This document shows, one piece after another, positions 15,146 through 38,075 of a DNA stretch of 38,075 bases; within the stretch, counting starts at the first letter, position 1, and each line of letters starts with the position of its first letter. A model generated the notes under the pieces. That model was not told the origin of the DNA and searched no databases. It saw only the letters and a list, made by a program, of their open reading frames with translations. The DNA comes from Ignavibacteriota bacterium (lineage in GTDB: Bacteria; Bacteroidota; Ignavibacteria; UBA10030; UBA6906), in the NCBI GenBank assembly GCA_003158475.1, contig PMJR01000089.1:8964-47038 (forward strand). Reading direction: 5' to 3'. The position numbers were made by a program, and so were the translations under genes.

Positions 15146-16090
15146 TCACCACGTAAACTTGTTCTTGTAATAGTCGACAATCCGTGCCAGCTCTTCGTCG
15201 AAATTCTTCGTGTTCTTCCAGCCGAGCTCCCGCAGGCGGGAATCATCCAGCGAATAGCGTATGTCCTCCCCCATCCGGACGTAGTTGAACTGGGCGTAGT
15301 CCTCGAGGGGAACATCCTTGCCGAAATAGCAGCGCAGGACCTTGGCAACCACCTCTTTGTTTTGCGCTTCGTAATTGCCGGACACGTTGTAAATGGTGTT
15401 CCGCTCACCATGTTCGACGATGTGCAGTATCGCCGACGCCGTGTCGTCTGCATGCAGCCAGTTTCGCACGAATGAACCGTCGCCGTGGAGAGGTATTTTC
15501 TTCCCGAGGGAGAGGTACTTGACGGCTTTGGGAATGAGTTTTTCGGGATACTGATCGATGCCGTAATTGTTTGTCGGACGGACGATGACGAACGGCACGC
15601 CGTGCGTCCGGTGCCAACCGAGTATGAGCATGTCGGCCGCCGCCTTGCTCGCGGAGTACGGGTTGCTCGGCTTCAAGGGGTCGGTTTCCCTGTGGTTCCC
15701 GGCGGTCAGATCCCCGTACACTTCGTCGGTGCTCAGATGGACCAGCACGGGCATTTCGTAGTTGCGCTTTGCGCGGACCAGCTCCAGGATGTTCTCGACC
15801 CCCATGATATTCGTGTGGAGGAAGCGTTTGCTGTCGACAATACTGTTGTCAACGTGAGTTTCAGCAGCGAAATTGAACACGATGTCCACCTCGTACAGGT
15901 GGTCCATTGTGGCAATGTCTGCTTCGAGGAATTTGAATGACTTCGAGTGCTGGAATTCTTCGAGATGCTCGGAACGGGCGGCATAGGTCTTTTTGTCGAT
16001 TCCCCATACGCGCCAGCCCCGCAGGAGACAGGCACGCGTGAAATGAGAGCCCATGAATCCAAGGCATCCGGTAACGGCGACGACTTTCAT
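15146..16090 (-). CDS. rmlB: dTDP-glucose 4,6-dehydratase-like NDP-sugar dehydratase
   Basis: Extended SDR enzyme making a 4-keto-6-deoxy NDP-sugar. The 314-residue product begins MKVVAVTGCLGFMGSHF with the NAD-binding GxxGxxG. It carries AAETHVDNSI (76-84), the STDEVYGD catalytic loop with Asp/Glu (120-127), the YSASK Tyr/Lys pair (145/149) and RPTNNYGIDQYPEKLIP, which are RmlB hallmarks. It is somewhat shorter than the usual 330-360 residues. The ORF-track N-terminus is 40 codons too long; the ATG at 16090 overlaps the upstream fusion gene's stop (ATGA). No RmlA nucleotidyltransferase is in the window, so the activated sugar must come from elsewhere. Confidence 0.9.
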   Translation of the reverse strand: MKVVAVTGCLGFMGSHFTRACLLRGWRVWGIDKKTYAARSEHLEEFQHSKSFKFLEADIATMDHLYEVDIVFNFAAETHVDNSIVDSKRFLHTNIMGVENILELVRAKRNYEMPVLVHLSTDEVYGDLTAGNHRETDPLKPSNPYSASKAAADMLILGWHRTHGVPFVIVRPTNNYGIDQYPEKLIPKAVKYLSLGKKIPLHGDGSFVRNWLHADDTASAILHIVEHGERNTIYNVSGNYEAQNKEVVAKVLRCYFGKDVPLEDYAQFNYVRMGEDIRYSLDDSRLRELGWKNTKNFDEELARIVDYYKNKFTW

Positions 16091-18072
16091 TTGCGTGGTG
16101 CTCCTGCTGAGGTGTCGGGAATAATGGTGGGAACGGGAACCGGGAGTATGAAGCCGCCTGCGTACTGCACCGCCTGGCAGCGGGCAATGATCTCTTTCTG
16201 GAAATTCCATGCGAGGAGGAGCAGGTAGTCCACCCTGGTCCCGGCCAGCTCCTGGATCCCCGCGATGCGCATGTGCGCCCCGGGCGTGAAATAACCCCGC
16301 TTTTTCGGGTTGTCATCGATGGCGACCGGAACATCGCGATCACTGATCTCGAAGAAATTCACAAGCGTGTTCCCCTTTGCGCTCGCGCCGTACGCCCAGA
16401 TCACCTTGCCGCCCGCGACTTCCCTGTCGATGAGCTCCCTGAGCTGCCGCTTGTTGAGGAGGACGCGCTCCGCGAAAGCGCGGTACGGTTCCCGGGCGGT
16501 GATGCCGAACGCGGTCTCGCGCTCGAGATACTCCGCGACCCGGGGTGTGCGCTCGTGTTCGCCCCGCCTGCACACATACGTCCGGATTGTTCCCCCGTGA
16601 AGGTCTGCGAAGTACTCCACATCGAACACATCCATCTCATGCATGCGCATCAGGGTCACCAGCGGAGTGATGCCGATGTACGAGAGATGTTCGTGATACG
16701 CCGTATCGAACTCGTTCTTCCCGATAAAGTCGAGGACGTAGGGGCATTCGATGACAAATATTCCCCGGCGGGCCAGGCAGGAGGCCACCCCTTCCACAAA
16801 CTTGTGGACATCGTCCACATGCGCAAAGACATTGGTCGCCGTGATCACCACGGGGTCGCCGAACCGCGCAGTGACGTCTTTGGCGATGGAGGGTGACCAG
16901 TAGACGTTCAGTGTCCGGATGCCCGCGGCGTTAGCTTCCGTCGCGAGGTTCTCGGCGGGATCGATGCCCACGACGCGCATGCCGATGTCCTGGAATTTCG
17001 AAAGCAGGCACCCGTCGTTGCTGGCGATGTCCATCACCATGTCTCCCGGCTTCGCCCCCGCCACCCGGCACGATGTCCGGGCGAGCTCTTCGCAATGTTT
17101 CCGGAAGGTCGCCGTTGTGGAGCTCACATACAGGTAGTTCTTGAACATCAGATCCGGGTGAACGACCCTTGTCAGTTGCGACAGGCCGCACCTGGTGCAC
17201 ACCTGGAGGGAAAGCTCCTCCCTGAACTCGGGAGAAGAAAGGTCTGTCCGTGTGACGTACGAATTTGCCAAGGGGGTCGATCCGAGGTCGAGATAGCGGT
17301 CGAGCGTGACCGACCCACAAATCCTGCACTGTGATTGGATCTTGGAGGCTGTCGTTCCTTCGGTCATCAAGTTGTTGAACCGGGTTGTGTCCATTGATGA
17401 GTCATGCGGCAGGGCATAGGTGATTGCGATGTCCCTGCGCCGGACCGGCCGCACGTCGGGATTGAATTCACTTTTGACGATGTCGAATATCGAACGGGGC
17501 ACCGGCCGGCCGACGTTGATGACGCCGGCAACGTCCTCCCTGAGCGCGAGGCGATAGATTGCTTCCGCCGCTTCGCCAATCGGCATGCGTGACGTGTACT
17601 GGTCGGTGCACCCCTGAGCAAAGTTCAGTTCCCTGTAAAATGAGGTGCGCACGATGAGGCTGTTGGCCACCAGAAGGACTGAGCATTCGCCGCCGAGCTT
17701 CGATGCCGCGTACCGGTTGACAGGCAGGACCGGCGACTCTTCCGAGTAGTCTCCCCGTTCGCCCGGGTACACGTAATCGGAGGAGATGTACACGAGCCGG
17801 GCATGATGCCGTCTGCACCAGAGGGCGACGTTTGCCGTCCCGATGATGTTGGAAAGCAGGTATCCCTCATCGGCGTCCTCGTTGAACTTGTTGGTGACCG
17901 CTCCTGCATGGATGACGACCGACACCCCCCCTTTTGCACAATACGATTCAATTGAATCGTACGAAGAGACGTCCATCTCATTCCTGGACGGCGCGAGGAG
18001 GTCACGGTCGAGCTTCAGAAGCTCCTTTGCAAGCTGCCCTGCGCCACCTGTGACGAGTATCCTATTTTGCAC
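16087..18072 (-). CDS. Fusion: RmlD-like NDP-sugar reductase + NDP-hexose C-methyltransferase
   Basis: A 661-residue two-domain protein. Residues 1 to about 225 form an SDR resembling dTDP-4-keto-rhamnose reductase (ILVTGGAGQLAKELL, VIHAGAVTNKF, YISSDYVYPG, YAASK at 121-125). Residues about 237-661 match the TylC3/NovU-type sugar C-methyltransferase: an N-terminal zinc site (C249, C252, C292, C295), the SAM motif MDIASNDGCLL (348 onward), the catalytic-type YHEHLSYIG (459-467) and a C-terminal Rossmann-like part (VIWAYGASAKGNTL). Methyltransferases of this family normally start just where the second part begins (MTEGTTASKIQSQCRICG), so two genes seem to have joined. The start is GTG at 18072, overlapping the cupin gene by 11 bases; the stop overlaps rmlB (ATGA). 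Confidence 0.9.
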   Translation of the reverse strand: MQNRILVTGGAGQLAKELLKLDRDLLAPSRNEMDVSSYDSIESYCAKGGVSVVIHAGAVTNKFNEDADEGYLLSNIIGTANVALWCRRHHARLVYISSDYVYPGERGDYSEESPVLPVNRYAASKLGGECSVLLVANSLIVRTSFYRELNFAQGCTDQYTSRMPIGEAAEAIYRLALREDVAGVINVGRPVPRSIFDIVKSEFNPDVRPVRRRDIAITYALPHDSSMDTTRFNNLMTEGTTASKIQSQCRICGSVTLDRYLDLGSTPLANSYVTRTDLSSPEFREELSLQVCTRCGLSQLTRVVHPDLMFKNYLYVSSTTATFRKHCEELARTSCRVAGAKPGDMVMDIASNDGCLLSKFQDIGMRVVGIDPAENLATEANAAGIRTLNVYWSPSIAKDVTARFGDPVVITATNVFAHVDDVHKFVEGVASCLARRGIFVIECPYVLDFIGKNEFDTAYHEHLSYIGITPLVTLMRMHEMDVFDVEYFADLHGGTIRTYVCRRGEHERTPRVAEYLERETAFGITAREPYRAFAERVLLNKRQLRELIDREVAGGKVIWAYGASAKGNTLVNFFEISDRDVPVAIDDNPKKRGYFTPGAHMRIAGIQELAGTRVDYLLLLAWNFQKEIIARCQAVQYAGGFILPVPVPTIIPDTSAGAPRK

Positions 18073-18493
18073 GACGTAACCAGTCAAACCCCATGGCCTC
18101 GACGGTCTTGCGTTCTTCGTCCGCCGGGTTATATTTGCTCGTAAGCCAGTAGAGAACAACCGCGGGTTCGTTGGTGAAATTGTAATATCCGTGCCAGATC
18201 CCGCGCGGTATGAACAGCGCACCGTCCTTGGCGCTCCGTTCGGAAGAGTAGACCCACTCCACGGTCCCCTTTTCGTGGGCCGGTGCGTTGCAGAAACCGA
18301 ATTTAAGCGCCCCTTTCACGCAGATCTGATAGTCATCCTGGAACTCATGCCGGTGCCAGGCCGACAGAGCCCCCGGATGGACGATGGTCGCATTGACATC
18401 ACCATTGCCGACCGGAAAAATGTCGTTATACCGAATGCCACGGTCGTCCTCGTGAAACCGGAGGGCGTGGCGCTTGATCAGTGAGCCGGCCAT
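18062..18493 (-). CDS. RmlC-like cupin, probable NDP-sugar epimerase or isomerase
   Basis: A 143-residue single-domain cupin. The segment WHRHEFQDDYQICVKGALKFGF and the later IPRGIWHGYYNF give the two cupin motifs seen in dTDP-4-dehydrorhamnose 3,5-epimerase and its relatives. At 143 residues it is shorter than RmlC (about 180), so it may be a 3-epimerase, 5-epimerase or 3,4-ketoisomerase instead. The start ATG follows GGGAGG by 10 bases. It lies immediately upstream of the reductase/C-methyltransferase fusion and the 4,6-dehydratase. The trio looks like a pathway for a branched 6-deoxy sugar. Confidence 0.82.
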   Translation of the reverse strand: MAGSLIKRHALRFHEDDRGIRYNDIFPVGNGDVNATIVHPGALSAWHRHEFQDDYQICVKGALKFGFCNAPAHEKGTVEWVYSSERSAKDGALFIPRGIWHGYYNFTNEPAVVLYWLTSKYNPADEERKTVEAMGFDWLRRAK

Positions 18494-18518: not shown

Positions 18519-19478
18519 TCAGATTCGCCCTTCCTGCGGGAAGAGGGCGTATTTTACGTGCCAACCCGCCTCGGTGATCGTCCACCGGCAGTCGTCACCG
18601 GGTGAAAACATGTACCTGATCCGGGCCGCGACCCATCGGCGCGCAAACTGGAACGCGTAGAGCGTCCTGGTCGCCAGCGAGTAGAGGCGCCCGTGATGTT
18701 TTGTGAGGAACTTGTTGTACCCGGAGTACATCAGGCGGAGACGGTACTCCGGCACCTTGCTGAAGGACTGTCCGCCGAAATGAATAATCTCCGCAGCGGG
18801 GACATAATACAGCCGCCACCTGGTGTCGTGTTTGATGCGGTAGCAGAAGTCCGTTTCCTCGCAATAGCTGGTGTAGCGCTCATCGAAAAACCCGATCTTG
18901 CTTATCACTTCCCGTCTGATCAGCATGTCCGCCCCCGAGAGGTACTGGGCCTCCATCGGAGTCGTTATGGATTCTCCGGGGACAATGCCGATCTGCGGCC
19001 AGCGGACGAACGGGACAAGGTGCGACATACCGAAAGCTTCAGAGAACGCCTGGAGGAGACCGGGGAACGAACCGAACGACACCTGTGTCGACATATCCCG
19101 GTTGCGCAGCTTCCCCGCACATGCGCCGGCATCGGGATGGGTCTCCAGGAATTCAAGCAGGATCTTGATCGCGTTGTTCACAAGCACCATGTCCGAATTC
19201 AGCATCTGGACGTACTTTCCCTTTGCAAGGGCGACCCCCTTGTTGTAGGATTTTGCGACTCCGATGTTCGTCTGGTTGATCGTCAGGATCACGTCGGGGA
19301 ATTCCGCGCGGACCATCTCGGGGCTTCCGTCGGTCGACCCGTCATCGACGATAATGATCTCGTACGTCAGCCCCTTCGTCTTTTCATGGACGGAATGGAG
19401 GCAGTCGCGCAGCATATCGCGCACATTCCACTGCGTGAAAACTATGGAAACATCCGGATGTGACAGAGCACGGCTCAT
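18519..19478 (-). CDS. GT2-family glycosyltransferase
   Basis: A 319-residue GT-A enzyme with VSIVFTQWNVRDMLRDCL, IIIVDDGSTDGS, the conserved INQTNIGVAKSYNKG block, QMLNSDMV (metal site) and FFDERYTSYCEETDFCYRI. The sequence around YLSGADMLIRREV is the usual acceptor-side segment. The ORF-track start lies 72 codons inside the preceding methyltransferase gene; the ATG at 19478 starts 7 bases after that gene ends. It ends 25 bases before the cupin. It belongs to the glycan operon; specificity unknown. Confidence 0.92.
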   Translation of the reverse strand: MSRALSHPDVSIVFTQWNVRDMLRDCLHSVHEKTKGLTYEIIIVDDGSTDGSPEMVRAEFPDVILTINQTNIGVAKSYNKGVALAKGKYVQMLNSDMVLVNNAIKILLEFLETHPDAGACAGKLRNRDMSTQVSFGSFPGLLQAFSEAFGMSHLVPFVRWPQIGIVPGESITTPMEAQYLSGADMLIRREVISKIGFFDERYTSYCEETDFCYRIKHDTRWRLYYVPAAEIIHFGGQSFSKVPEYRLRLMYSGYNKFLTKHHGRLYSLATRTLYAFQFARRWVAARIRYMFSPGDDCRWTITEAGWHVKYALFPQEGRI

Positions 19479-19485
19479 GATCAGT

Positions 19486-20400
19486 TTACTGTCTCGATGC
19501 AGAAATGAGTGTGAACGTGCCCCCGCGGTGAAAGGCGGATTCAATGGCGGCCGCCCCGCGCGCGAGCGGACGACCCGCAAAGCGGCGTGCAACCCCCCCC
19601 GCGAAGGATCCGTTCGCCGCCACCAGGGGGACCAGACTCCCGAGGATCCCGGCCCAGTTGTGCTCCGGTGACCGCTGGAATTCCGCCTGCACATCGAAAC
19701 CTCCGGCGTCGAGGAGCTTCCGGAGCCCGCCGGGAGTAAAATGGTAAAGGTGACGCGGCACTTCCAGGTGGTACCAGCGACCGCGGAACACCCGGGCCTG
19801 GAGGCTGTCGAAATTCGGTACGGCGATAATCAGTATCCCACCGGGTTTCAGGAGAGTCCGGATTCTCTCAAGAGCCTCCACGGGACGGGGAATGTGTTCC
19901 AGGACGTGCCAGAGGGTCACGACATCAAAGGAGTGGTCCGGGAAATGGGTATTCAGGAGATCCCCTTCCGTGATGTGAACCCCCTCCTCCTTCGTTCCGA
20001 ATTCTACCGCCTCCCGGCTGAACTCGACCCCCTGTGCGGAGAATCCCGCTTTCGAGGCCTCCCGCAGGAAGAACCCCGCACCGCATCCCACGTCGAGAAG
20101 TGTGCCGGACGACCGGAACCGGCGCACAATATTGAGCTTGTCCCGTTGGGGGGGCTGTATCCTCCTCCGGTAGTACCCCGGGTCATATCCGCCGATAGGA
20201 TAGTACGAAGCAGGATAGTATCGGCCCAGTGTCCGTTCAGGAGGCCGGGGGACCGTTTGAGCGATGCCGCAATCGGTACAACGAACGACAGAAAAGGACT
20301 CGTCGGTCGTCTTGAAATTGATATCCCTGGCCGGAAACAGGAACTCTCCGGCCGTGCCGCCGCAGATACCACATTCAAACGGTGTGCCCGGTGGATTCAT
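19486..20400 (-). CDS. SAM-dependent methyltransferase with N-terminal zinc ribbon
   Basis: A 304-residue enzyme. Cysteines 10/13 (FECGICGG) and 41/44 (RCTDCG) form a likely zinc ribbon. The class I SAM motif is LLDVGCGAGFF (101-111), followed by DHSFDVVTLWHVLEHIPRPV and LKPGGILIIAVPNFDS. Proteins of this build (Methyltransf_23 with a ribbon) are common in O-antigen and exopolysaccharide clusters and probably methylate a glycan or lipid-linked intermediate. The C-terminus has a hydrophobic/arginine-rich stretch. The start overlaps the flippase gene by 26 bases, an unusually long overlap. Confidence 0.88.
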   Translation of the reverse strand: MNPPGTPFECGICGGTAGEFLFPARDINFKTTDESFSVVRCTDCGIAQTVPRPPERTLGRYYPASYYPIGGYDPGYYRRRIQPPQRDKLNIVRRFRSSGTLLDVGCGAGFFLREASKAGFSAQGVEFSREAVEFGTKEEGVHITEGDLLNTHFPDHSFDVVTLWHVLEHIPRPVEALERIRTLLKPGGILIIAVPNFDSLQARVFRGRWYHLEVPRHLYHFTPGGLRKLLDAGGFDVQAEFQRSPEHNWAGILGSLVPLVAANGSFAGGVARRFAGRPLARGAAAIESAFHRGGTFTLISASRQ

Positions 20401-21718
20401 GCGCGCGCCTTCTCAGGTGAAGAAAATATATTACACTCGACATCAAAATGCCAACGACCCCGCTGAGTGAGAATGCCACCGCCGCGCCGAGTGCCCCCAG
20501 GCGCGGGATGAATATCGCGTTCCCTGCAATCAGAGCTGCTATTCCCGCGGCCGACATTATGGGGAACACCTCGGACCGGTTCCATGCGAACAGGGTCGCA
20601 TTCAGGGGATAGGCGGCCACGACACAGAGCAATCCGATGCACATCACCCGAATCATCGTCCCGGTGCCCACGAATTTCGGGCCGAAGACAATCGCGACTA
20701 CCAGATCTGCCGACAGGGCCAGGAGAAGGATGCCGAGGCCAAACAGGCTGACGATCAGGATAGAATGACGCTGCTTTTTCCGGATCATTTCGGGAGTAAT
20801 CGCCGAAGACAGTTCGGGCAGGAGAACCGTGAGATAGGAGTTCGTCACAATCACCACGATGGAGGCAATCTTCGACGCAGCACCGTACATCCCGAGCGCG
20901 CGGGCATCGGCGAGCCCCCCCACAAAGAAGAGGTCCATGCGCCCACCGACCAGGTTGAGGATATAATACAGAGAGAGCCATTTGTTGAAGGAGAGCATCC
21001 TGCGCCTGAGCTGAGTATCGGCTTTCCTGAAGGAGATCACGTTCCTGGGTGCACACAGGTAGCTGAGTACCACCAATCCGCCTCCGGTCGCGATCTCAAT
21101 CCACAGGGCGTCCCCCACCCGGAGCGAGCTGGACATGAAGGCATAAACAAACACGACAAGGACCACCACCTTCATGAGAGGCTGGGAGATTGACACCGCG
21201 GCAAGAGTGCGGAACTGCCTGTGCGACTGGAAAATCGGAGGAAAGAATGAAGCGATCATCCCGAAAGCGACAGCGATCAGCGAAAGGAGAAAGTACGAGT
21301 TGATACTACTGTCGACATGCGTAAAGACCATGCCTACGATCGGATTGAGGAACAAGACTGCCCCGACCAGCACAATCCCCGAAAGGACGAGTTTTGCCTT
21401 GAGAGCGACGCTCAGGACCGAGCGGAAACCATTCTCATCCCCCCGTGCGATCATTTCCGACCCGAACCTGACGATCGATCCTCCGATCCCGAGGTCTGAG
21501 AGTGCCACCATCATCGTGACAATGGAAATGATGAGCGTCAGGACCCCGTATTCGTCAACTCCCAGTGTCCTTGCATACAGTCCCGACGTCACAGCCCCGA
21601 GGAGTGCACTCATGGCCGAAGCCGCCCCAACCCAGAAAGTGTTCTCCACCGTCTGGGAATGCCACGCCTTCTGCATGAAGTTCCTGACCCGTCCGGTGAT
21701 GACGTTCCCGTCGGTCAT
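20375..21718 (-). CDS. Wzx-like polysaccharide flippase (MOP superfamily)
   Basis: Inner-membrane protein of 447 residues with about 12 to 14 hydrophobic segments, matching the polysaccharide-flippase (Wzx/RfbX) family that moves undecaprenyl-linked oligosaccharides to the periplasm. Family-like features: NTFWVGAASAMSALLGAVTS, LYARTLGVDEYGVLTLIIS and GIGGSIVRFGSEM near the N-terminus, and the FVGGLADARALGMYGAASK block in the second half. The start at 21718 (MTDGNVITG) overlaps the upstream glycosyltransferase stop as ATGA; the ORF-track start is 18 codons earlier inside that gene. No Wzy polymerase or ligase is recognisable in the window. Confidence 0.9.
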   Translation of the reverse strand: MTDGNVITGRVRNFMQKAWHSQTVENTFWVGAASAMSALLGAVTSGLYARTLGVDEYGVLTLIISIVTMMVALSDLGIGGSIVRFGSEMIARGDENGFRSVLSVALKAKLVLSGIVLVGAVLFLNPIVGMVFTHVDSSINSYFLLSLIAVAFGMIASFFPPIFQSHRQFRTLAAVSISQPLMKVVVLVVFVYAFMSSSLRVGDALWIEIATGGGLVVLSYLCAPRNVISFRKADTQLRRRMLSFNKWLSLYYILNLVGGRMDLFFVGGLADARALGMYGAASKIASIVVIVTNSYLTVLLPELSSAITPEMIRKKQRHSILIVSLFGLGILLLALSADLVVAIVFGPKFVGTGTMIRVMCIGLLCVVAAYPLNATLFAWNRSEVFPIMSAAGIAALIAGNAIFIPRLGALGAAVAFSLSGVVGILMSSVIYFLHLRRRAHESTGHTV

Positions 21719-22956
21719 GGCCTTGTGCCGATATTCAGGCTTGAAAGCATCAATTCCGTAAGCGCGCGCCACGAATGCCTCCGGGCCATTTCGCGCCGGC
21801 GGTCCTGTATCTCCCCCGCCGGTTCCGCCAGGGATTCCCTGACGGCCGAAGCAAATTCCTCCTTCCCCTGCGCCAGCCGCAGGAGTCCGTCGTTTCTGAA
21901 AGTGAGGAGTTCGTGCATCGGGGTTGAGACGACGGGCTTGCCGAGGGCAAAGTACTCGAACACCTTGACGGGGTTTGTTGTCTGGGAAACCTTCCCTGCA
22001 AGGAAAGGAATCAGGCAGACATCGAAAGCGCTTATGTACCGCGGCATTTCCCCGTACTCCCTCCTGCCGATCCAGCGAAGGTTCGGTATCGTTCGAAGGT
22101 GAGCATTCCGGAACTCGAAATCGAGCGGTCCCACCATGATGAAAGAGACATCAGGCATCGTACGCGCGAGATGGCCGATGAGATCGAAGTCGAACCAGGC
22201 CCGCAACACCCCGACGTACCCCGCGATGGGGTGGCTCGCCTCCTGTATGTCAGCCGGGACCCCCCCCCCTGCAGCACAATCCTCGAACCAGTCAAGGTCG
22301 ACCCCGTTCGGAACGCGGACAATGGGACGCCCGGGAGCGATTGCGCGAAGCCTTTCTTCGAGTTTTTCAGCGGTAACGAATGTCGTCCCGGCGATATCCA
22401 GGAGGCGACGTTCGTATCCTCCGAACCTCTCGACTGAAGCGGCCCCCGAAAACAGGGTGATCTCATCCAGGCAATCATAGGCGATTGTCGTGAAATCCCC
22501 GCGCTGCAGAACAAGCCCCCAGAAGGGATTCTGCACGATGGCGATCGATTCCTCATCCTGGCCGATGAAACGGAGCACCCGACGTTTGAGAGCCTGCCGG
22601 AATATGGCAGCGTTCACATTCTCCAGCGGAGCGGAGTCCACGCGGTTCGATGGATACACCATCGGCATGGGGACAATTGAAAGCCCGGTTTCCCCGGGAC
22701 TTTGTCCCCTTCGGCGACGCGGCGCGGAAGCACTTCCGGGGATGAGGAATGAGAAGATCCCGAGGGCCTGGTACACGATCGAATACAGCACCAACCGCAG
22801 CAGCCCCTTCTTCCGGCCATGGAGATACTCGGTCAATCCGCACGGCTCAATGAACGTCACGCGGATTCCTCGCTGGACGAACTGGTCGGCAAGCTTCTGC
22901 GGGCGCTGATGAAGAAACGAATACGGGATCGGGGAGAAAAGATAAACGTGCGTCAA
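21715..22956 (-). CDS. GT-B glycosyltransferase (GT1/GT4-like)
   Basis: A 413-residue protein. The N-terminal domain starts [20 protein letters not shown], common among TuaH-like enzymes that act on teichuronic-acid or O-antigen-type glycans (from memory). The donor domain shows [47 protein letters not shown], and [15 protein letters not shown] ending in [17 protein letters not shown]. One hydrophobic stretch near residues 55-75 may associate with the membrane. It overlaps wecB and the flippase by 4 bases each (ATGA). Donor sugar unknown. Confidence 0.88.
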
Positions 22957-36908: not shown

Positions 36909-38075
36909 CTAGAATGGAATCCTCACAATTCGATGACGGTTCCTCACGACGATGATCCACAAAATGCAAGCAGCGGAAAGACCGGCAATTGCTGAAATGA
37001 AGACAGGTGTCCCGGCGAGTTCGCCATGCGAATCACCAATTGAAACTTTATCACCTTCTCCGCAGAGAATAAACGCACCCCAGTAAAAGGGATCAGATCG
37101 ACCAGATTTGATCATGTCCAGCTTTGCATTCCTCAATGCCTCCGCTCTGCCGGCACCATTCTTCAGATACGTGTAGAAGGTCTCCATCAAGCTAGCGGTA
37201 ACCTCATCGTCTACGTTCCACAAACTTGCTATCACACTTGGTACACCAGAGATCATGATTGAACTCGTCATCCCTACCGATCCAGATTGCGATGACAATC
37301 TCCCGGTGTTGCATCCACTTAGGACCACTAAATCTGCATTCAGGTGAATAGAAAGAAAATCAATTGCACGTAGTCCATTCGAACCACCATCGTCCGCGTC
37401 GTTCGACAAAGCTATCATGGAGTACAACGGGCGCGATTCATCGAAGTCGACGTGAGCAGCAAGGTGCAGTATACGATACTGCGATGCCTCGAGATTAAAC
37501 CTCTTCGTGGTCGCATTGGATCTCGACAGCACGGTAGCTTCATTCCCAAAAATATTCCGGATCGCTCCCAATTCACGTCGAACCCCCGGAAAAGATCGAG
37601 GCTGTCCTGAGATCGGGTTTTCTACCTTGGATGTAGCTGACCTTCCAGCCGACTGCGTTGTCCTATCTGAAGTGACCGCATCACCGATCGCAAGAATCAA
37701 CTTTGGGGCATGGCGAACCTGATTGCATAGATTCAGATCGGTGGATGCAGAAAGCGAATAATTGATATCGTACTTACCAATTACAAACCGGGGGCAGACG
37801 TGGGTTATGGAATCAGCCCAACTAGACCATCCACTTACAAGGATTTCAAACGGCAGATTTGACAAAACGCCATCAGTGACAATCGTCAAAGAGGTTGATT
37901 CGCCAGACATTGCAATTGCACGCTGGAAAAGGAGTTCATATGCTTCATGTAGTCCTTCCAGATCAAAGTCAGCAATTGCAGCATTCATGACTGGAAGACC
38001 TTTGACTCCCTCCGAATACACCTTGCTGCTCCGCCGCAACAACTCACGGAGAGCACGTTGAGTCACTTTGATTGT
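36909..38075 (-). CDS. CHAT-domain (caspase-like) protease with C-terminal membrane anchor, N-terminus cut off
   Basis: At least 388 residues; the frame stays open to the window edge, so the GTG listed at 38066 is probably internal and an N-terminal part (often TPR repeats in this family) is missing. The CHAT domain has the catalytic pair His205 in ILHLAAHVDFD and Cys252 in LVVLSGCNTG (numbered from that GTG), then SVIASLWNVDDE and DPFYWGAFILCGEG, all family-typical. A single helix near the end (TPVFISAIAGLSAACILWII) plus a basic tail (RNRHRIVRI) would anchor it in the membrane. CHAT proteases act in defence, cell death or signal cleavage. The partner is unknown; the site-2 protease is convergent. 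Confidence 0.9.
   Translation of the reverse strand, partial: TIKVTQRALRELLRRSSKVYSEGVKGLPVMNAAIADFDLEGLHEAYELLFQRAIAMSGESTSLTIVTDGVLSNLPFEILVSGWSSWADSITHVCPRFVIGKYDINYSLSASTDLNLCNQVRHAPKLILAIGDAVTSDRTTQSAGRSATSKVENPISGQPRSFPGVRRELGAIRNIFGNEATVLSRSNATTKRFNLEASQYRILHLAAHVDFDESRPLYSMIALSNDADDGGSNGLRAIDFLSIHLNADLVVLSGCNTGRLSSQSGSVGMTSSIMISGVPSVIASLWNVDDEVTASLMETFYTYLKNGAGRAEALRNAKLDMIKSGRSDPFYWGAFILCGEGDKVSIGDSHGELAGTPVFISAIAGLSAACILWIIVVRNRHRIVRIPF

Follow-up and report, generated by a model that had tools for sequence, protein, structure and literature searches.

The question raised by this locus is whether one gene joins a nucleotide-sugar ketoreductase (KR) to a sugar C-methyltransferase (MT) and, if so, what such a protein would make. 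The window, by which we mean the whole stretch of 38,075 nucleotides analysed, comes from an Ignavibacteriota bacterium. Most known methyl-branched deoxysugars come from antibiotics, with a few from lipopolysaccharides; one of the latter is Coxiella virenose, for which no 4-ketoreductase of the TDP route could be confidently identified (PMC3539893). We propose, with a probability of about 80%, that the fusion is a bifunctional deoxysugar enzyme that would C-methylate and 4-reduce an NDP-4-keto-6-deoxyhexose for a surface glycan, a reading that draws on sequence and on a structural model.

One reading frame and two domains

The first-pass annotation placed the fusion at 16087–18072, which is correct, and we add that the gene lies on the minus strand. 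Read from 18072 to 16087, the frame runs uninterrupted for 661 codons on reverse translation, and Pfam domains are found in both halves: RmlD_sub_bind at residues 4–145, Methyltransf_13 at 249–310, Methyltransf_23 at 327–475 and Methyltransf_14 at 491–646. An in-frame join of two complete domains, an RmlD-like SDR ketoreductase (residues 1–236) and a sugar C-methyltransferase (245–653), is thus borne out, and the intervening stop that had been named as a possible refutation is absent. The gene and its parts are:

16087–18072, minus strand: KR-MT fusion gene, 661 aa, GTG start at 18072 and TGA stop at 16089–16087
17365–18072, minus strand: compact RmlD-like SDR ketoreductase domain, residues 1–236, from PF04321, RmlD profile and fold matches
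17329–17364, minus strand: junction, residues 237–248, right behind the non-conserved Met236
17143–17328, minus strand: zinc-binding part (Methyltransf_13), residues 249–310, with C249-x2-C252 and C292-x2-C295
16135–17112, minus strand: SAM-binding core and C-terminal domain, residues 321–646, from Pfam and the TcaB9 residue alignment

That the N-terminal half is a ketoreductase, as first suggested, is supported by Pfam, profile and fold matches and by conserved catalytic residues, and these point to a predicted RmlD-like enzyme. The domain scores 98.2 bits against PF04321 (gathering cut-off 27) and 90 bits against the NCBIfam rmlD equivalog (cut-off 224), and because it misses the latter we call it RmlD-like rather than RmlD. 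The fold search with the AlphaFold model also matched this half to RmlD. Similarity wanes past residue 145, and among the RmlD structures matched by profile only the shortest, 2ggs, covers the whole domain (residues 4–234). The KR shares with the dTDP-4-dehydrorhamnose reductase RmlD its Pfam family, its fold and its catalytic residues (S/T-D-Y at 98–100 and YxxxK at Y121 and K125, both invariant among 24 fused or split relatives), whereas it is about 50 aa shorter, falls far under the equivalog cut-off, is fused to an MT and belongs to a clade split from ordinary RmlD with 100/100 support. One alternative assigns the SDR half to the NDP-sugar epimerases or to reductases of another position, such as 3-ketoreductases, in which case the product would still be a C-methyl sugar. 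The distance from the rmlD equivalog and the waning similarity after residue 145 fit this alternative, as do the epimerases that belong to this SDR class and appear among the lower-ranked profile matches. We consider it unlikely, given that RmlD reductases are the best matches in both sequence and fold, that the separate KR clade carries the RmlD catalytic residues and that stand-alone KRs (see below) adjoin RmlC-type genes.

The glycine motif of the KR had been described as GGAGQLA, with its final glycine replaced by alanine, and this is accurate: the full GxxGxxG pattern is absent, since each of the six cellular fusions has Ala or Ser at the last position, where the phage relatives have Gly. 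We read this distribution as a lineage trait and see in it no sign of a dead enzyme. It also bears on the idea that the KR half is a non-catalytic scaffold and that the MT carries out the reduction, as reported for MtmC. The Ala or Ser found in every cellular fusion and the bifunctionality reported for MtmC would suit a scaffold, but none of the catalytic SDR residues varies and the Gly is retained in phage relatives, leaving this a very unlikely explanation and the KR a candidate 4-ketoreductase.

By sequence and model, the C-terminal half clearly falls in the sugar C-methyltransferase family to which it had been assigned. It has a zinc domain with two CxxC motifs, a SAM core and Methyltransf_14, in that order, and the scores for Methyltransf_13, 23 and 14 (65.6, 36.7 and 148.8 bits respectively) are all above cut-off. 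The zinc cysteines C249, C252, C292 and C295 are invariant over 24 relatives. Its nearest solved structures by sequence are MtmC (4rv9, E 6e-84), then TcaB9 and KijD1, and the AlphaFold model aligns with the three at TM 0.93–0.96 of target length. Active-site residues Y76, H181, Y222, E224 and H225 of TcaB9, selected as those probed by mutant crystal structures, align with Y313, H418, Y459, E461 and H462 of the fusion, Y313 lying just before the SAM core. A first model from six sequences (pLDDT 68) was replaced by this one, made from 49 sequences with a mean pLDDT of 90. Its pTM of 0.68 makes the arrangement of the domains untrustworthy as a guide to channelling. Sequence and model together establish a single open reading frame, both folds, conserved catalytic residues and a conserved operon.

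The junction does fall, as had been noted, where stand-alone enzymes of the family start; the methionine of 'MTEG' is residue 236, adjoins the junction and precedes the first zinc-motif cysteine by about 10 residues. An ATG at this point raises the possibility that two separate proteins are made, by initiation at ATG236 or by cleavage, and a split of this kind has parallels in phages, where a separate MT gene begins at the equivalent point, and in one genome, G462, in which the MT occurs alone. Against this, Met236 is not conserved across the six aligned fusions (LMTE or LMTD within the genus, L-ESE in G032, MIESS in G036 and G026), no Shine-Dalgarno-like sequence was seen upstream of it, and the frame has stayed open across divergence to 60% identity. 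Since the methionine varies and a ribosome-binding site is not visible, expression mainly from the internal ATG, the other refutation that had been envisaged, is unlikely; we reject ATG236 as an internal start and regard production of two proteins by either route as very unlikely.

Distribution and gene neighbourhood

A search of 41 related genomes and then of 98 genomes of the order recovered the full-length fusion in five other genomes, so that the architecture spans three families at 60–88% identity: 87–88% in two members of the same genus (G002 and G003), 63% in family f3 (G032) and 60–61% in family f2 (G036 and G026). G001, of the window's genus, has no fusion. The fusion genomes all appear to be draft assemblies in many contigs, as might be expected if the join were an artefact of assembly or binning. 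In six independent genomes from three families the two halves are nevertheless joined at the same point; this conservation rules out assembly error and reduces the probability of any such artefact to a negligible level. A genome-contig scan, whose narrow patterns detect close relatives only, matched fen MAGs labelled Ignavibacteriae and one MAG labelled Bacteroidota. No further fusion was found at E below 1e-100 in 396 genomes drawn across the phylum, which indicates that close relatives are rare. A Nonomuraea plasmid match covering 99% of the query was set aside, as it consists of two pieces across about 2.7 kb and probably represents separate genes.

The fusion lies in a glycan cluster and is immediately followed by a 4,6-dehydratase gene, in keeping with the surface-glycan setting first proposed. 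The neighbours considered are:

15146–16090, minus strand: NDP-sugar 4,6-dehydratase, RmlB-like, 314 aa, its ATG overlapping the fusion TGA (ATGA)
18062–18493, minus strand: small cupin, 143 aa, weakly like dTDP-sugar 3- or 3,5-epimerases
18519–19484, minus strand: GT2 glycosyltransferase, whose linkage to the fusion holds in all six genomes
19486–20400, minus strand: SAM methyltransferase gene, with relatives near the fusion in f2 and beside the G462 MT
20375–21772, minus strand: putative flippase-like (Wzx-type) membrane protein of the glycan cluster, named from sequence appearance and conserved in the genus

The stop of the fusion and the start of the dehydratase share the ATGA (strand letters TCATTTGCG), and the dehydratase follows the fusion directly in all six genomes, at 75–94% identity. 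It matches RmlB structures over nearly the whole chain (best 2hun, E 1e-71), yet with 318.7 bits it stays below the 365.1-bit cut-off of the NCBIfam dTDP-glucose 4,6-dehydratase equivalog, is only RmlB-like and forms a sub-family of its own tied to the fusion; a more typical RmlB paralogue of the same genome is about 40% identical to it. A dehydratase search of the fusion-less genomes G001 and G462 found no close copy, only RmlB-like paralogues at about 40% identity. This association with the fusion supports the proposed pathway.

The GT2 gene is 84–87% identical within the genus and 53–58% elsewhere, and lies upstream of the fusion in the window and downstream in f2 and f3. Relatives of the methyltransferase at 19486–20400 occur near the f2 fusions (45–46%) and adjoin the unfused MT of G462 (34%). 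The cupin gene, which shares its last 11 nt with the start of the fusion, is next to the fusion in the window's genus only, and its product weakly resembles 3-epimerases of the D-allose pathway (E 4e-4). The window's own genome carries a canonical RmlD elsewhere and partial rmlA-like matches at contig ends; from these, the organism probably has a normal rhamnose pathway alongside that of the fusion. By sequence appearance, a CDP-sugar-like set (RfbH-, RfbF- and RfbG-like) and an RmlC-like gene lie upstream of the fusion in G032 (L023, 3165–6887). Other stand-alone C-methyltransferases of the order (L049–L053) are 28–38% identical, are often found beside cytidylyltransferase- or CDP-glucose dehydratase-like genes and apparently belong to a separate C-methyl sugar pathway. 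Elsewhere in the window, an open reading frame at 36909–38066 on the minus strand looks, from its sequence, like a CHAT-type peptidase domain with a hydrophobic stretch C-terminal to it.

Beyond what the first-pass annotation had recorded, we observed stand-alone KRs, an MT without a KR, and fused and split pairs in contigs of tailed phages. Across the phylum the KR profile gave two peaks. The fusion of the window falls in the first (E 1e-76 or better) together with four stand-alone proteins, each about 240 aa long, and all remaining matches form the second (E 2e-31 or weaker). The four proteins are:

Stand-alone compact KRs of Bacteroidota-phylum genomes: L178, 7656–8378; L179, 8323–9057; L180, 7753–8481; L181, 8028–8741

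Each adjoins a gene named as RmlC-type from its sequence appearance, and in two of the four clusters an RmlB-like gene is no more than about 5 kb away. The RmlC-type neighbours support a 4-ketoreductase role for the KR. These stand-alone proteins are also the group that the cellular fusions join in the KR tree (83/70, and 92/87 in a smaller set), but the AU test does not reject a tree that unites all fused and split KRs in one clade (p-AU 0.168). G462 presents the converse case: its MT, 66–67% identical to that of the fusion, begins as a free-standing protein. No KR ortholog was found in this genome, where only about 100 bp separate the MT from the end of its contig and a neighbour could have been lost; the best KR-profile match was rejected as the missing partner because it is an ordinary RmlD. 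In the careful tree the G462 MT nests among the cellular fusions, with weak branch support (96/76, then 86/65), and this placement suggests that the KR was lost from a formerly fused MT. Retention of a 66% identical MT where no KR ortholog was found also suggests that the MT can work without a fused KR, a point against the bifunctional reading.

A proposed pathway and its known counterparts

In enzymes of the TylC3/TcaB9 type, a 4-ketone activates the adjacent carbon, so that the order of events is dehydration, C-methylation and 4-reduction. We suggest the same order here. The adjoining 4,6-dehydratase would make an NDP-4-keto-6-deoxyhexose, probably dTDP-4-keto-6-deoxyglucose; the zinc-containing, SAM-dependent MT half would methylate the carbon next to the ketone; the compact RmlD-like SDR half would then reduce the 4-ketone with NAD(P)H; and the linked GT2 would place the branched deoxysugar in a surface glycan. 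Methylation would precede reduction because it depends on the ketone being present. The methylated carbon is more likely to be C3 than C5, as the closest characterised relatives, in a comparison with MtmC, TcaB9 and KijD1, methylate C3. The reactions, their order, the nucleotide and any advantage of channelling are what we infer. Both equivalog cut-offs are missed (90 vs 224 and 319 vs 365 bits), for which reason the substrates may differ from those of RmlD and RmlB, and the CDP-sugar-type gene set that appears to lie near the G032 fusion weakens the assignment of dTDP as the nucleotide. Channelling of the keto sugar by the fusion is plausible, and that phages keep the pair either fused or as overlapping genes supports joint use of KR and MT.

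The fused MT has the zinc motif, SAM core and C-terminal domain of TcaB9, KijD1, TylC3/EryBIII and NovU, and TylC3, EryBIII and NovU are enzymes that we take to be its stand-alone kin. Such stand-alone C-methyltransferases lack a KR domain and a separate gene supplies that activity, whereas the fusion has its own. MtmC, the mithramycin D-mycarose 3-C-methyltransferase/ketoreductase, is the best solved match to the MT in the fold alignment (4rv9; 37% identity, TM 0.94). MtmC is reported as a bifunctional ketoreductase-methyltransferase (PMC5103430). It consists of one chain of C-methyltransferase type, about 420 aa long; the fusion instead carries a separate SDR domain, and in its one chain both domains are complete. 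By analogy, with MtmC as the functional precedent, the fusion may solve the same task by the addition of a dedicated SDR domain. For Coxiella virenose, a dual-function TylCIII-type enzyme has been suggested, as no separate 4-ketoreductase of the TDP route is obvious (PMC3539893). In the libraries searched, outside which most subscription papers lie, we found neither a name nor a paper for the two-domain KR-MT fusion. Its conservation marks KR and MT as partners and offers a sequence signature for branched sugars in uncultured bacteria.

Fused and split pairs in phage contigs

A scan of viral contigs (IMG/VR) with the fusion alignment yielded 80 loci. Thirteen open reading frames (12 distinct) of 638–674 aa encode a fused KR-MT, with 34–40% identity per domain (L077–L088 and L103, with L082 and L083 matching in the same manner). 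A further eight loci (six distinct) have split pairs in overlapping genes, with a KR of 232–246 aa and an MT of 403–417 aa (L119, L121, L123, L130–L132, L134 and L151). In these the MT starts inside the KR gene, 57 nt before the KR stop (25 nt in L121) and in the -1 frame, at the position that corresponds to the join of the fused proteins. With fused, split and single versions, nature offers a series for a direct test of substrate channelling. In the MT tree the three forms are intermixed within a phage clade (100/100) in which the split pairs make one group, a pattern compatible with the splitting of ancestral fusions or with recurrent change.

Neighbouring genes include those for major head protein, head closure, head-tail adaptor, portal, connector and capsid, as well as head maturation protease, terminase, tape-measure and major tail proteins; from these neighbours, many of the contigs belong to uncultured tailed phages. 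A head- or tail-type gene lies within 3 kb in seven of the 12 distinct fused loci, and glycosyltransferase genes flank several of the KR-MT pairs. When a dehydratase/epimerase profile was run on 18 phage records, the largest of them 236, 122 and 121 kb and the remainder possibly fragments, the KR itself was the sole match in 17 and one had no match. With the KR as the only dehydratase-like SDR in these 17 records, the phages probably tap dTDP-4-keto-6-deoxyglucose, the intermediate of the host's rhamnose pathway. We tentatively put forward, at somewhat less than even odds, that the KR-MT of the tailed-phage head region is a module that takes the host keto sugar and makes a C-methyl deoxysugar, transferred by phage glycosyltransferases to the virion or host surface, and that the bacterial fusion is a cellular relative with its own dehydratase. 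Capsid and tail glycans of mycobacteriophages are known (cited in PMC12619734), and the phage KR-MT resembles other phage glycosylation genes in lying among head genes beside glycosyltransferases. From this location we suggest that unusual sugars are made or remodelled by phages, perhaps as a shield for the virions. The literature searched, which lacks most subscription papers, contained no description of a phage-encoded C-methyl deoxysugar pair.

Two other viral proteins were noted. An open reading frame of about 867 codons in a 642-kb uncultured phage (LR756502.1; L157, 8092–10695) appears to combine a GalE-like epimerase part, a cupin-like part and a C-methyltransferase of the type found in the KR-MT pair, and was rejected as a KR-MT, being a different fusion. 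The top viral fold match, a 743-aa Klosneuvirus protein (BFVD A0A1V0SJ68; 21% identity, rmsd 22), covers both domains and raises the possibility of a comparable two-domain protein in a giant virus.
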